Below are positions 13,611 to 22,770 of a stretch of DNA of 64,000 bases, piece after piece. Each line of letters opens with the position of its first letter. The stretch's first letter is position 1. A program made the translations under genes and the position numbers. Origin of the DNA: Acetatifactor sp. (GTDB taxonomy: Bacteria > Bacillota > Clostridia > Lachnospirales > Lachnospiraceae). Under the pieces are notes generated by a model. That model was not told where the DNA came from and searched no databases. It saw only the letters and a program-made list of their open reading frames with translations. The stretch lies in contig JAEEVF010000001.1 of the NCBI GenBank assembly GCA_016290775.1, positions 186,001 to 250,000 on the forward strand, read 5' to 3'.

Positions 13611-13826
13611 TTAAGCTACTACGGTAACGTTGGTAGCACGGATCTTGCTGCTGTTCTGAGGATCGCACTCGGTATCGAAGGTAACCTTCTGGCCCTCTTC
13701 AAGAGACTTGAAGCCTTCAGCGTTGATAGCGGAGAAGTGTACGAAAACTTCCTCTCCAGTTGCCTCGTTGGTGATGAAACCATAACCCTTCTGTGCGTTG
13801 AACCACTTAACAGTACCGTTGTTCAT
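13611..13826 (-). CDS. csp: Cold shock protein (CspA family)
   Basis: 71 aa [38 protein letters not shown] gaaggagg. Confidence 0.97.
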
Positions 13827-13860
13827 TGTAGAACCTCCTTCTTTTGCTTGGGACATAGCC

Positions 13861-14070: not shown

Positions 14071-14217
14071 TAAAATTTTCATTTTTGTTGTGATAATTCA
14101 CTTAAATAGTTGCCGAATTCTCATTTTTCTTGTAAAATAGTAACATGAGACAGTGGGAAAGTATCTCCTTTTGACTGAGGTTTGATGGAGCGCCTTGGAC
14201 GCTTAGAGGGAGGCGAC

Positions 14218-17200
14218 ATGCTGGGAAACAAGAAAGTGATCGGACTTTGCGTCACGAAGATCCATGACAGGGTCAGGGCTGCCTTGGCTGACGAGGTGAA
14301 TCTTGCAGCCGTGGAGCAAGGCTATAAGCTGATCTGTTTTAACAGTATTGAGGATTTTTATCGGGACGACGTATATAGCAAGGGCGCCAAGACGATTTAT
14401 GACCGAATGGATCTTGACATGCTTGACGGACTGATCGTGTGCCAGGAGCATTTTTGCAATCAGCGGATCGTGGAAGAGATCATTGACCGCGCCGCGAAGA
14501 AGCAGATCCCTACCGTCATTTTGAACGGTGAGGCGAAGGGGTGCGTGAGTGTCATCAATGACTGCAAGGATGCCTTCAAGGACATGATCCGCCATATTAT
14601 CCGCGTTCACCACGTGAATGATCTGTATTTCCTTGCGGGGAGATTGGGAGACCATAATTCCGAGGAACGTCTTGAGTATTTCCGCGAGGTGATGGAGGAA
14701 TGTGGCCTTGCGGTCCGCGATGACCGCATCGGTTACGGAGATTACTGGGATGAGCCGGCCATGCGCATCACGGAGGATCTGGTGGTGAACGGAAAGCTTC
14801 CGCGTGCCATCATCTGTGCCAATGACAATATGGCCTTTGGCGTTTGCAAGAAGCTGAAAATGCTGGGCTATTCCGTCCCCGAGGATGTGATCGTGACGGG
14901 ATTTGACGGCATCCCGGCGGTGGAATATTTTTATCCAAAGCTCACGACCTGTCGCGAGAATTGGGAGGAGCAGGCCAAGACCTGCGTGGAAGTGCTCCGC
15001 AAGCTCTTTGCGGGAGAACCCGTACAGCAGACCTATCGGATCCCTTACGGAAATAAATATGCCGAGAGCTGCGGCTGTGAGAAGCCCAAGCTCATTCAAA
15101 GGGACGAGGCTGCGGCTGAGCTGTTTTCGCTCCTCGAGTCCATGGAGGCTCATGAGGATTACGTGACGAGCGAGACCGAGATGATGCTGAACATCGAGGA
15201 CGTAAATGACTTAATGGGACCGCTCTCAAGGTTTATTCTTTCGAATTCCTGGCTTTGCGTGAGCAGTAAGTTCATGCAGCTTGCCACCGTGGAAGGCTGG
15301 GAGGACGGCCGCATGATCGTGGTGCCGTCCATGTATGGCCAGGACCGTGAGCTGCGCTATATCAGCGACGATGACATGCTTCCGGAAACCTGGGAATGGG
15401 CAGAGGATGACAGTTGCTATGTCCTTACGAGCGTATATTCCAAGGATTCCTTCTGTGGCTATTATGCCGTAAAGACCACCTACATCGGCGGCATCGGCTA
15501 CAAGATGAAAAAGATCGTCCGTCTTGCGAACCTGGTCTGCAATTCGCTGATCAATCAGTTCAAGCAGCGCGAGATGATGCGCAACATGGAAGGCGCGATC
15601 TATCGCGACACCTTGACGGGACTTCCGAACCTAAAGGGTGCGACGAAGTGGTTCGAAGATTTTTCTTCCAACGAGGCAAATCACAAAAAGAGCCTTTCCA
15701 TTTCGGTGTTTGCACTGGCGCAGTATAAAATGCTTTATGAAAAATATGGCATGCCGGCCGTGGAGGATATCATCCTTACGCTTTCGGAAAAGCTCAAGAT
15801 TTTGCGTGGCATCGGCGGCTTCCTTGCAAGGACTTCTGAAAATGAGTTCGTTTTGATCCAGGTGTTTGAGAATGCCTCGATGATCAATTCCGCCAACGCA
15901 AGGCTTGCTTTGGCCGTGCAAAAGGAAGTTGCTAAATTCAATCAGCAAAAGCGCATCGGTCAGCCCGTGGACGTCAACGTCGGCAGCACGACCGCAGGCA
16001 GCGGCTGGAAGGGGTCTTTAAGCGCATTTGTGAAATATGCCTCCAACGAGATGGTCCTGAACAGAATGAACGGAAGCGCAGAGGTAAAGGACGACGAGCA
16101 GGGTTCCCACGGGGATTACCTCGACGTGTTCAATCTCCTTGTGGACAACAATCTTTTCCAGTATCATTATCAGCCCATCGTGGATGCGAGAGACGGTTCC
16201 ATCTATGGCTACGAGGCGTTGATGCGTACCAAGGGCGGCATCAATCTGACACCCCTCGACATTCTTGGCGCGGCGAAGGAATTTCAGAGATTGGATGAGA
16301 TCGAGCATGCTACCATGTTCAACATCATGAAGCAGTATGCGAACGAGAATGAGAGATTCTTTGGCAGAAAGGTCTTCATCAACACGATCCCCAATCATTT
16401 CCTCTCGGCGGAGGAAAGCGCAAAGCTGGCGGAGAAATATCAGGCCTACATGGACAAGGTGGTCTTTGAGGTGACGGAGCAGGAGACCAGCTCCGACGAG
16501 GAGCTTGAGGCCTTAAAGCGCTTCAGCGCCGGCAGCGGCAACGTGCAGATTGCCATTGACGATTACGGCACGGGACATTCCAACATCGTGAATCTTCTTC
16601 GCTATGCGCCGCAGATCATCAAGATCGACAGGTATCTGATCAGCGGCATCGACAGCGACGTGAATAAGCAGATCTTCGTTAAGAACACCATCGAGTTTGC
16701 GGCAATGAACGGGATCAAGGTGCTTGCGGAGGGCGTTGAGACGCTAGGAGAGCTCAGAAGCGTCATTGAGTATGGCGTTGACCTGATCCAGGGCTATTAT
16801 CTCGGCAGGCCCCAGGCGGACCCGATCGCGGAGCTTGAGGACAAGGTTCTGAGCGAGATCATCAACCAGAATCTGACCCTTGCCGTTTATGACAAGGGCA
16901 ATCAGAAGGTATATACGGCGAAGGACGGCGAGACCGTGAACGTGGTGGAGCTTGCGCTTCACAAGTACAATTACGTACATGTCGTATCGGGCAATGTAAA
17001 GCTTATCGGTAAGAAGGACAGCACGGTCAACCTTGTGGTGAAGGTGGCGGATAACGCGGACGTAAGGCTTTCGCTCACGGACGTGAACCTGACCGGCATT
17101 GATGAACCGGCGATCCAGCTGGGCAAGGCAAGCAATCTGGAACTTTCACTGGATGGCTTCAATTCCGTCAACAAGAACGGCATTTTGGTAACGACGAACG

Positions 17201-18081
17201 CAAGGCTTCGTATCGTTGGCCGCGGCGCGCTTCTTGTGAACAGCAATGACAATTATACGGTGGGCATTGGCGCCAAATATGACGATCCTTATGGAGAGAT
17301 CATTTTCGAGCATACCGGTTGGGTGCGCGTGATCTCCTCGGGCGATAAGATCGTCGGCGTCGGCGGAGGCTACAGCAATTCGCCCATCACCATTAAGAGC
17401 GGACACATGGAGGTTTCCTGCTCCGGCATCTCCGTCATGGGCATCGGAAGCTCTGCAGGTGAGGCATCGATCAACATCGGTGACGCGGAGGTGATGGTAA
17501 AACAGTCCGGAAATGAAGCCGTCGGCATTGGAACGATCAAGGGAAAATGCAAGCTTCATTTTGCGGGAAGGGCAAACGTGACGGCCGACGGAGAACGCGC
17601 GGTCTGCGTGGGTTCCATGTTTGGTGAGGATTGTTCGTTGCATCTCGACGGCGGAAAGATCAATGCCGTCAGCCATTGTGACACGGGCGCCGTGATCGGA
17701 ACCTATTCCGGGTCTTGTACGACCTATTGTAAGGATTGCGACGTGACGGTTTATGGAGAAGGTTCCATGGTGACCGGCATCGGAAGCAATCGCGGCAAGT
17801 GCACGACGGAGATTTCCGGCGGCGTATTGGACGTAAAGCTTCTTTCGGGCGGCGGAAAGCCGTTTGGATATGAAGAGGACCGCATGGTCATCACGGGAGG
17901 AAACGTGATCGACAGGGGCGGTGCGGAGATCACCGCGTGGAATGCATATGGACAAAGGCTGCATCTTGAGATCAAGGATCAAGATCATTTTGAACAGGTG
18001 ATCTGGACCGAGCACGGGGAGTACGTTTACTCTGCGGATCGCTCTAAGGAGCACGAGATCATGTGCATTTACCTGCCATAG
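14218..18081 (+). CDS. Cytosolic PBP-I (LacI-type ligand-binding) - degenerate GGDEF - EAL - C-terminal GIG-repeat beta-solenoid protein
   Basis: No HTH, signal peptide or TM; Peripla_BP-like AIICANDNMAFGVCKKLKMLGYSVPEDVIVTGFDG; ARTSENEF in place of RxGGDEF; EAL, FEVTEQE, DDYGTGHSN, IKIDRYLI, VLAEGVET; then about 7 rungs of GIGS... Confidence 0.8.
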   Translation: MLGNKKVIGLCVTKIHDRVRAALADEVNLAAVEQGYKLICFNSIEDFYRDDVYSKGAKTIYDRMDLDMLDGLIVCQEHFCNQRIVEEIIDRAAKKQIPTVILNGEAKGCVSVINDCKDAFKDMIRHIIRVHHVNDLYFLAGRLGDHNSEERLEYFREVMEECGLAVRDDRIGYGDYWDEPAMRITEDLVVNGKLPRAIICANDNMAFGVCKKLKMLGYSVPEDVIVTGFDGIPAVEYFYPKLTTCRENWEEQAKTCVEVLRKLFAGEPVQQTYRIPYGNKYAESCGCEKPKLIQRDEAAAELFSLLESMEAHEDYVTSETEMMLNIEDVNDLMGPLSRFILSNSWLCVSSKFMQLATVEGWEDGRMIVVPSMYGQDRELRYISDDDMLPETWEWAEDDSCYVLTSVYSKDSFCGYYAVKTTYIGGIGYKMKKIVRLANLVCNSLINQFKQREMMRNMEGAIYRDTLTGLPNLKGATKWFEDFSSNEANHKKSLSISVFALAQYKMLYEKYGMPAVEDIILTLSEKLKILRGIGGFLARTSENEFVLIQVFENASMINSANARLALAVQKEVAKFNQQKRIGQPVDVNVGSTTAGSGWKGSLSAFVKYASNEMVLNRMNGSAEVKDDEQGSHGDYLDVFNLLVDNNLFQYHYQPIVDARDGSIYGYEALMRTKGGINLTPLDILGAAKEFQRLDEIEHATMFNIMKQYANENERFFGRKVFINTIPNHFLSAEESAKLAEKYQAYMDKVVFEVTEQETSSDEELEALKRFSAGSGNVQIAIDDYGTGHSNIVNLLRYAPQIIKIDRYLISGIDSDVNKQIFVKNTIEFAAMNGIKVLAEGVETLGELRSVIEYGVDLIQGYYLGRPQADPIAELEDKVLSEIINQNLTLAVYDKGNQKVYTAKDGETVNVVELALHKYNYVHVVSGNVKLIGKKDSTVNLVVKVADNADVRLSLTDVNLTGIDEPAIQLGKASNLELSLDGFNSVNKNGILVTTNARLRIVGRGALLVNSNDNYTVGIGAKYDDPYGEIIFEHTGWVRVISSGDKIVGVGGGYSNSPITIKSGHMEVSCSGISVMGIGSSAGEASINIGDAEVMVKQSGNEAVGIGTIKGKCKLHFAGRANVTADGERAVCVGSMFGEDCSLHLDGGKINAVSHCDTGAVIGTYSGSCTTYCKDCDVTVYGEGSMVTGIGSNRGKCTTEISGGVLDVKLLSGGGKPFGYEEDRMVITGGNVIDRGGAEITAWNAYGQRLHLEIKDQDHFEQVIWTEHGEYVYSADRSKEHEIMCIYLP

Positions 18082-18110: not shown

Positions 18111-18144
18111 ATCGGGGACTGCACGTTCAGTCCCCGATTTTTCT
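18111..18144 (+). terminator. Rho-independent terminator
   Basis: cggggact-gcacgttc-agtccccg + attttt. Confidence 0.8.
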
Positions 18145-18242
18145 TGATTGTTCCGAAAAAGTTTATAGATTTTTAATTGCATTTATGCTTCATCGGTGTT
18201 ATACATGTTATAGAACAATAAATAGACAAAGGGGGTGTGAAC

Positions 18243-20907: not shown

Positions 20908-22770
20908 ATGACTCGAAGGATTGCCGTTTTTATCGGTCAGTTGAATCAAGAATACTTGATGGAGATGAGTCGCTCCGTAACAAACGCGGCGGGCAAGTTG
21001 GGCTATCGACTTGACGTGTTCACCGAGTTTGGTTCTTATGGCGATAATTATCTCCACGCGGAAGGGGAGAGGAATATCATTCGTCTCCCCTTTGTTGAGG
21101 ATTACGACGGCGTGATCATCGCGCCGGATACATTTGGCGTGCCCGAAATGGAAAAGCAATTGGACTTGCTTTTGCTTTCTCGGACGAAGGGACCCGTTGT
21201 CAGCATCCGTCAGGAAAAGGATTGCTTTTACACCGTGCAGATCGACAACCGTAAGGCCATGGCGGCGCTTACGGAGCATTTCGTGAAGGATCACGGCTAC
21301 AAGAGGATCTGCTTCATGAAAGGCAGGGCAGACCTTCGCGATGCCGACGAGCGTTTCCAGGGCTTTATGGACGTCATGAACAAATACAATTTGCCTGTGA
21401 CGGAGCAGCAGCTTTTCCAAGGAGATTACTGGAGGCGATTGGGCAAAGCGGCAGTGGATTGGTTCCTTTCCGGGCCGGAAATGCCCGAGGCCATCATATG
21501 CGCCAACGATTTTATGGCTATCTCTGTTTTGATCGCGCTTAAAGAACGCGACATAAGGATTCCGGAAGACATTGCGGTTGCAGGATTTGACGACGTGGAG
21601 GAGATCCGCTATCTGGATCCCGCGATCTGTAGCGTTCACATGCCTTGCTATGGCATCGGAGACGAGTCCGTCCGCCTGATCGACAAGCTTTGCCACGGCG
21701 GAAAATCGGAGCAGATCGTTCGTCTGCCTTATCAGGTGGTTCCCAGAAAGAGTTGTGGGTGCCCCATTGAAGAGCACGGCCACTGGGCGGAGCAGCTGTA
21801 CAATCAAAGAAGATACTTAAGCGAAGTGCTTCTGCACAATGGCTTCATGAATGCGGATTATGAGAACTGCGACACGCTCGATGAACTATTCGGCATTGCT
21901 TATCAATATACCAATCGTTTCAAATATGATGAGATCTTTGTCTGCCTGTGCGAATCAAAGGATGAAAACGGCGAACGCATTCTGGATTTCCAGCATTACA
22001 CGGATCATATGGTGTTGCGAGCCATCCTTAGAAGGGAAGGCGGCATGACGCTTCTTGAGGAACGATTCCCGAGAAGGGAACTTCTTCCGGAAAAGTACCG
22101 AAAGGACATTGAGACCTTGTATTACTTCCCGATGCATCATAAGAATCGTTGTCTGGGATACTTGGCCGTTGCATCCAGAGACGTTACGGAGCTGAAGGAA
22201 TTCTTCCAGTGCTGGACCTATGAGATGTGCAGTTGTCTGGACAAGGTTTTGCTTTACGAAGAGAATCAAAGCCTGCAGGAGTTCAGAAAGCTTTCCACGA
22301 TCGATGATCTTACGGGGCTTTATAACAGGCGTAAGTTTGAGCAGGAACTCAGCAAAAAGCTTGTGACTCTAAAATCCAGGGACATTGATTTTTACATTGT
22401 CAGCCTCGACATGGATGGGCTTAAGACCATCAATGACACCTATGGACACATGGAGGGCGACGTGGCGCTGAAGGCATTTGCGGACGCCTTGGTGAAAGCT
22501 GCGGGTGATATTGGAATGTGCTTCCGCGTGGGCGGAGATGAGTTCACGATGCTGGTATCCACGGGAGAGGAGTCAAAGCTAAAGGCCGTGCTCCACGCAG
22601 TCCAGGAAGAGATCGATGCATATAACGAAACCTCCGGGAAGCCATATGCAATCTCCGGAAGCCGTGGATATGCGAAATTCAAGAAGAATGAAGAACTGTC
22701 CAACTGCATCCGCCGCGCAGACATTGACATGTATGCCGACAAGATGGCAAGGAAGCGCGGAAGGAGATAA
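20908..22770 (+). CDS. Cytosolic PBP-I (LacI-type ligand-binding) - GGDEF diguanylate cyclase
   Basis: LacI-type effector-binding domain without HTH (AIICANDFMAISVLIALKERDIRIPEDIAVAGFDDVEEIRYLDP), then DDLTGLYNRRKFEQEL...FRVGGDEFTML. Confidence 0.85.
   Translation: MTRRIAVFIGQLNQEYLMEMSRSVTNAAGKLGYRLDVFTEFGSYGDNYLHAEGERNIIRLPFVEDYDGVIIAPDTFGVPEMEKQLDLLLLSRTKGPVVSIRQEKDCFYTVQIDNRKAMAALTEHFVKDHGYKRICFMKGRADLRDADERFQGFMDVMNKYNLPVTEQQLFQGDYWRRLGKAAVDWFLSGPEMPEAIICANDFMAISVLIALKERDIRIPEDIAVAGFDDVEEIRYLDPAICSVHMPCYGIGDESVRLIDKLCHGGKSEQIVRLPYQVVPRKSCGCPIEEHGHWAEQLYNQRRYLSEVLLHNGFMNADYENCDTLDELFGIAYQYTNRFKYDEIFVCLCESKDENGERILDFQHYTDHMVLRAILRREGGMTLLEERFPRRELLPEKYRKDIETLYYFPMHHKNRCLGYLAVASRDVTELKEFFQCWTYEMCSCLDKVLLYEENQSLQEFRKLSTIDDLTGLYNRRKFEQELSKKLVTLKSRDIDFYIVSLDMDGLKTINDTYGHMEGDVALKAFADALVKAAGDIGMCFRVGGDEFTMLVSTGEESKLKAVLHAVQEEIDAYNETSGKPYAISGSRGYAKFKKNEELSNCIRRADIDMYADKMARKRGRR

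Follow-up and report, generated by a model that had tools for sequence, protein, structure and literature searches.

Receptors of the FimX and LapD type have generally lost the catalytic motifs of their EAL domains, and in YkuI the accessory domain YkuI_C lies C-terminal to EAL. Beta-solenoids in the cytosol tend to self-assemble. YkuI_C is found in c-di-GMP enzymes and is thought to be intracellular, and the Periplas_BP domain is counted among the putative sensor domains of such enzymes (PMC8846402). Among glycine-rich solenoids, Cthe_2159 is a beta-helix that binds cellulose and acid sugars (PMC6712302). In the stretch of DNA analyzed here (64,000 nucleotides, hereafter the window), a first-pass annotation had proposed that a single protein joins a LacI-type ligand-binding domain, a degenerate GGDEF domain, an EAL domain and an adhesin-like beta-solenoid.

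Gene, locus and domain layout

The protein was encoded by a single ORF of 1287 aa at 14218-18081 (+), exactly where it had been placed. A strong Shine-Dalgarno region (GAGGGAGG; 14206-14217, +, read directly from the sequence and approximate to a few bases) preceded the ATG at 14218 by a few bases, making an in-frame extension to a TTG unlikely. Between the stop codon and clpB we read an apparent intrinsic terminator, a hairpin (CGGGGACTG...CAGTCCCCG) followed by a T-run (approximately 18111-18145, +). Given the strong Shine-Dalgarno before the ATG and the terminator-like hairpin past the stop, the gene probably forms a single-gene unit ahead of clpB. Immediately upstream, the other strand encodes a cold-shock-like small protein, recognized by eye (13611-13829, -). 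Elsewhere the window carried a glmS ribozyme (60823-60973, +; Rfam RF00234, 60.5 bits).

From N to C terminus the protein comprised a LacI-type periplasmic-binding-protein-like (PBP) domain, a middle domain, a degenerate GGDEF, an EAL, a beta-solenoid of about 320 aa and a tail of about 75 aa. The order of domains proposed earlier thus stood, but the tail (residues 1213-1287) and the conserved middle domain (291-455) had been missed. Pfam placed Peripla_BP_3 at residues 136-271 (E 1.3e-20), GGDEF at 462-610 (6.5e-9) and EAL at 642-865 (8.2e-47); PF13377 and PF00563, which the first-pass annotation had expected, were both matched. The PBP domain (residues 1-290; 14218-15087, +; PF13377/PF00532) was significantly homologous to the cores of LacI, CcpA and PurR, with ancestral LacI, CcpA and PurR as best PDB matches. 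The alignment with PurR began at PurR residue 57, past its helix-turn-helix (HTH) and hinge, which paired with query residue 4; the protein therefore has no DNA-binding part and, as had been proposed, lacks the N-terminal HTH of LacI-family transcription factors. Arg151, Asn202 and Asp230, which by eye and from motif positions we take to be the counterparts of the LacI sugar contacts Arg197, Asn246 and Asp274, were invariant among the aligned orthologs. With a Kyte-Doolittle average of only 1.12 for its most hydrophobic 19-mer, the protein has neither a transmembrane (TM) helix nor a signal peptide, again as first described. The middle domain (15088-15582, +) had no Pfam match; it was conserved, had a 21% identical counterpart in the PBP-GGDEF protein encoded downstream (alignment A8) and is possibly GAF-like.

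Full-length orthologs were found in at least eight other genomes. One genome scan gave six loci with 66-70% identity over all 1287 residues, and a search of the genus gave full-length matches, 36-68% identical, in four genomes, one of which (G309) is apparently the same contig as a locus from the scan (L040). That an assembly or frameshift artefact fused two genes is ruled out for practical purposes by full-length orthologs in independent assemblies and by many further EAL-solenoid proteins in several families; nothing was found in its favor. Among close orthologs (at least 55% identity) on contigs long enough to compare, two of which (L037 and L083) cover only part of the locus, gene order was membrane protein, response regulator, SPFH-like protein, ABC transporter, EAL gene, ClpB and PBP-GGDEF, the names membrane protein, SPFH-like and ABC being given by eye from translations. 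The ortholog with 36% identity (L084) did not share this locus. In the window the PBP-GGDEF protein (20908-22770, +; identified by Pfam) retained an intact RVGGDEF and is predicted to be a cytosolic diguanylate cyclase. Its gene keeps the same position relative to the EAL-solenoid gene in other species, sitting past clpB in all close orthologs whose contigs extend that far; with the EAL gene before clpB and the cyclase gene after it, enzymes of predicted opposing activity flank clpB.

Catalytic domains and the EAL-solenoid family

The GGDEF domain (residues 456-612; 15583-16053, +; PF00990) read ARTSENEF at its signature, as previously noted, and SE[S/N]EF in close orthologs; TSENEF departs from the GG[D/E]EF motif of active diguanylate cyclases. 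The domain was degenerate in all close orthologs and, together with the linker between EAL and solenoid (residues 869-897; 16822-16908, +), formed the least conserved part of the protein, which is consistent with a regulatory rather than a catalytic role. Identity among orthologs was 80.3% in the EAL, 71.6% in the solenoid, 71.5% in the PBP domain and 62.3% in the GGDEF.

The EAL domain (residues 640-868; 16135-16821, +) scored 160 bits against a Pfam cut-off of 31.3 and also matched EAL structures in the PDB. Its motifs were intact, bearing out the earlier reading: YEALMR, FINTIP, FEVTEQE, DDYGTGHSN, IKID, LAEGVET and IQGYY. In a motif alignment of 39 proteins the catalytic and metal-binding motifs were kept with rare exceptions. 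Phosphodiesterase activity is thus the default expectation, and judged from its sequence the EAL should be active on c-di-GMP. It might instead bind c-di-GMP without turnover, in the manner of FimX or LapD, and pass the signal to the solenoid as output; both proteins match the family as EAL relatives, and the GGDEF is likewise degenerate. We regard this as quite improbable, since the Glu of EAL, the Asn, ExTE, the Asp pair, the Lys, the Glu of EGVE and the Gln are all present, and are so throughout the clade.

The first-pass annotation had treated the architecture as a feature of one protein, which understated it; the domain combination is real and belongs to a family of EAL-solenoid enzymes. 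With the solenoid region alone as query, 17 of 299 sampled genomes of the family, besides the one analyzed here, yielded relatives; a search of the genus added more, and a profile of 25 sequences extended the set to other families of the class. The EAL-solenoid family is present in gut and rumen Lachnospiraceae and related families; tblastn against plasmids gave no match. In all 49 distinct proteins examined as full-length matches the EAL lay directly before the solenoid, and the C-terminal part (solenoid plus tail) was nearly constant at 365-433 aa, unlike variable repeat adhesins. The N-termini varied, comprising PBP-GGDEF, PBP alone, GNAT-GGDEF, GNAT alone, tandem GGDEF with TM segments, GGDEF only, or a short sequence. 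In two EAL-solenoid proteins (L087:6460-9336 and L088:6571-8964, -) the N-terminal domain was a GNAT acetyltransferase, accompanied by a GGDEF or not. At one locus (L126:345-4424, -) the protein was split, with a PBP-GGDEF gene followed on the same strand, about 90 bp on, by an EAL-solenoid gene.

The EALs of the 49 solenoid proteins formed one clade (support 100/100), separate from 33 other EALs that relatives encode. Because these 33 were drawn from a limited set of related genomes, an EAL from elsewhere could still nest in the solenoid clade. A very divergent solo EAL of the window's own genome, on a very long branch of 3.02 (L004; G000:C20:186377-187042), had fallen inside the clade in a first tree and was excluded from this second one; it is possibly a long-branch artefact or a relative that has lost its solenoid. 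Since the solenoid always follows the EAL, the N-termini vary and the EALs are monophyletic, the family is best explained by one founding EAL-solenoid unit joined to different sensors.

The solenoid, its relatives and its location

The first-pass annotation was right about the solenoid and its seven GIG rungs; its boundary needed correction. The domain (residues 898-1212; 16909-17853, +) starts at about residue 895-898, with irregular N-terminal rungs ahead of the GIG part, and the seven [IV]G motifs (at 1017, 1048, 1076, 1104, 1131, 1160 and 1188) are spaced by 27-31 residues, typically 28. AlphaFold2, the check proposed at the outset, predicted a beta-solenoid (pTM 0.82) from only seven aligned sequences; pLDDT was mostly >90 for about 250 residues and exceeded 60 through the first 320. 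The last 75 or so residues lay outside this model; the tail (17854-18078, +), which ends in YLP and has no confident model, was shared by the ortholog group and by L042 and L043 (alignment A4). A longer EAL-plus-solenoid construct again recovered the solenoid, with a poor EAL from a shallow alignment. Foldseek with the solenoid alone gave no match at E<=0.001, the top ones being mostly beta-solenoids (best TM 0.37-0.41); among the matches listed for the longer model with its poor EAL, all were EALs. The only solved structure that sequence search returned for the solenoid was 4peu (E 0.15).

The proposed relation to exported GIG surface proteins was borne out: the solenoid aligned with GIG/Beta_helix_3 proteins by hhalign at 99.3% (E 2.6e-20, 181 columns), a confirmation of relation rather than an independent discovery, as the exported set had been picked through its match to the solenoid profile. 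These exported proteins were matched only partially; they lacked an EAL and began with signal-like sequences, and Pfam Beta_helix_3 was present in two of three that were scanned. The 20-residue motif itself (PF18889) was not matched in the window protein. We take it that the solenoid shares descent with exported GIG solenoids, as these alignments indicate. The label Cthe_2159-like was not supported: PF14262 gave no match in the window solenoid at E<=10 and matched 4 of 25 solenoid relatives (best E 0.0038), so membership by Pfam match was rejected, and profile-profile comparison suggested at most a weak relation (73.8%, 87 columns, E 2.9e-5). The same genome encoded a Cthe_2159 protein (G000:C5:130267-130956) and large frames of Beta_helix_3 repeats (G000:C15:154831-161590), which means that the EAL-linked solenoid and exported-type ones occur together.

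Whereas GIG/Beta_helix_3 solenoids carry export signals, the window protein has no hydrophobic segment and its solenoid is fused to a cytosolic enzyme domain; from the missing export signals and the EAL fusion, the solenoid probably stays in the cytosol. Members with TM helices have their strongest hydrophobic segment close to the N-terminus, so that the solenoid stays with the EAL on the cytosolic side. EAL-linked solenoids were richer in Cys (2.2% against 0.6%) and in charged residues (19% against 10.5%) than their exported relatives, the pattern expected of cytosolic proteins.

Glycine and aliphatic residues made up nearly all well-conserved columns of the solenoid alignment, in which no binding patch of aromatic or acidic residues was seen to be conserved across the family. 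A structural or assembly role fits this better than a ligand site common to the family, though as negative evidence it is weak, and a ligand site specific to a subfamily would look identical. The same alignment bears on the first-pass suggestion that polysaccharides or oligomers are sensed at both ends of the enzyme, in which case the solenoid would detect glycans inside the cell, for instance storage polysaccharide or imported oligosaccharides. The homology to exported solenoids speaks for it, as do the weak profile relation to the cellulose- and acid-sugar-binding Cthe_2159 (PMC6712302) and the presence of glycan-processing beta-solenoids among the Foldseek neighbours, none of them significant. 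We nevertheless consider it unlikely: no such patch was seen across the family, the closest relatives are GIG/Beta_helix_3 proteins with no established ligand in the literature found, and all members are predicted to be cytosolic. Rather doubtful, too, is a C-terminal regulatory domain that touches the EAL and lets a signal other than a glycan gate its activity, as YkuI_C may do. Its fixed place right behind the EAL, strict co-inheritance and the precedent of YkuI_C, thought to be intracellular in c-di-GMP enzymes (PMC8846402), would suit such a role; however, the EAL-solenoid linker is poorly conserved and no ligand pocket was seen in the solenoid.

Proposed function and comparison with known systems

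We favor an assembly or docking role for the solenoid and a small-molecule sensor role for the PBP domain, the scaffold role being suggested by the lack of a conserved binding patch in the alignment and the general self-assembly tendency of cytosolic solenoids. We postulate, with about even confidence, a soluble cytosolic c-di-GMP phosphodiesterase with a PBP sensor, a solenoid that organizes the enzyme and a companion cyclase that opposes it. The N-terminal PBP domain would bind a cytosolic small molecule, probably a sugar or nucleoside-type metabolite, and signal its state to the EAL by way of the middle domain and a GGDEF without catalytic function; the EAL is predicted from its intact motifs to carry out catalysis. 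The solenoid, retained within the cell, would be a constant accessory module of these EALs and most likely organizes the enzyme, whether through self-assembly, through the geometry of the EAL dimer or by docking to a partner or site for local removal of c-di-GMP. The opposing activity probably comes from the PBP-GGDEF cyclase encoded one gene on, past clpB; the synteny itself was observed directly. Several features favor this explanation: the conserved EAL motifs, the fixed EAL-solenoid order under varied N-termini, the constant length and the single clade, together with the N-terminal position of TM segments, the Cys and charge contrast, conservation of the solenoid similar to that of the PBP domain, the ClpB/PBP-GGDEF locus and the split pair. 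More speculatively, a surface-type solenoid may have been internalized once and become a polymerizing or scaffolding tail that gathers the phosphodiesterase into local, bactofilin-like assemblies in the cytosol, confining c-di-GMP removal under interchangeable sensors.

The family is a taxonomically bounded, apparently undescribed lineage of predicted c-di-GMP phosphodiesterases from Clostridia of gut and rumen. Its large conserved domain, which neither Pfam nor NCBIfam names, is a solenoid typical of exported proteins but here predicted to lie in the cytosol. Its fixed catalytic and solenoid core with naturally swapped sensors offers a ready set for work on localization and assembly in c-di-GMP signaling. 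The architecture was absent from the literature found on EAL with beta-helix or solenoid and on Lachnospiraceae architectures, in which few subscription journals were covered.

Like other EAL phosphodiesterases (PF00563; Lmo0131 4q6j, PdeA and BlrP1), the protein has the EAL fold, its catalytic motifs and N-terminal sensors, but it adds a C-terminal beta-solenoid, and its clade is separate from other EALs of relatives. PBP-GGDEF(-EAL) proteins that carry LacI-like domains share its N-terminal layout; c-di-GMP enzymes with PBP domains were already known, and the account of such enzymes in PMC8846402 makes no mention of a solenoid, whereas the EAL-solenoid lineage is apparently undescribed. YkuI likewise combines an EAL with an intracellular C-terminal accessory domain, which there is a small PAS/CACHE-like fold and here a solenoid. 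Cthe_2159 (PF14262) is also a glycine-rich beta-helix with weak profile similarity, yet the sampled relatives mostly had exported or lipoprotein-like starts and did not match the EAL-solenoid profile. Exported Firmicutes surface-type proteins of the GIG/Beta_helix_3 group (PF18889) have a homologous solenoid with signal-peptide-like N-termini and no EAL, in contrast to the predicted cytosolic family described here, which is near-fixed in length and richer in Cys and charge.
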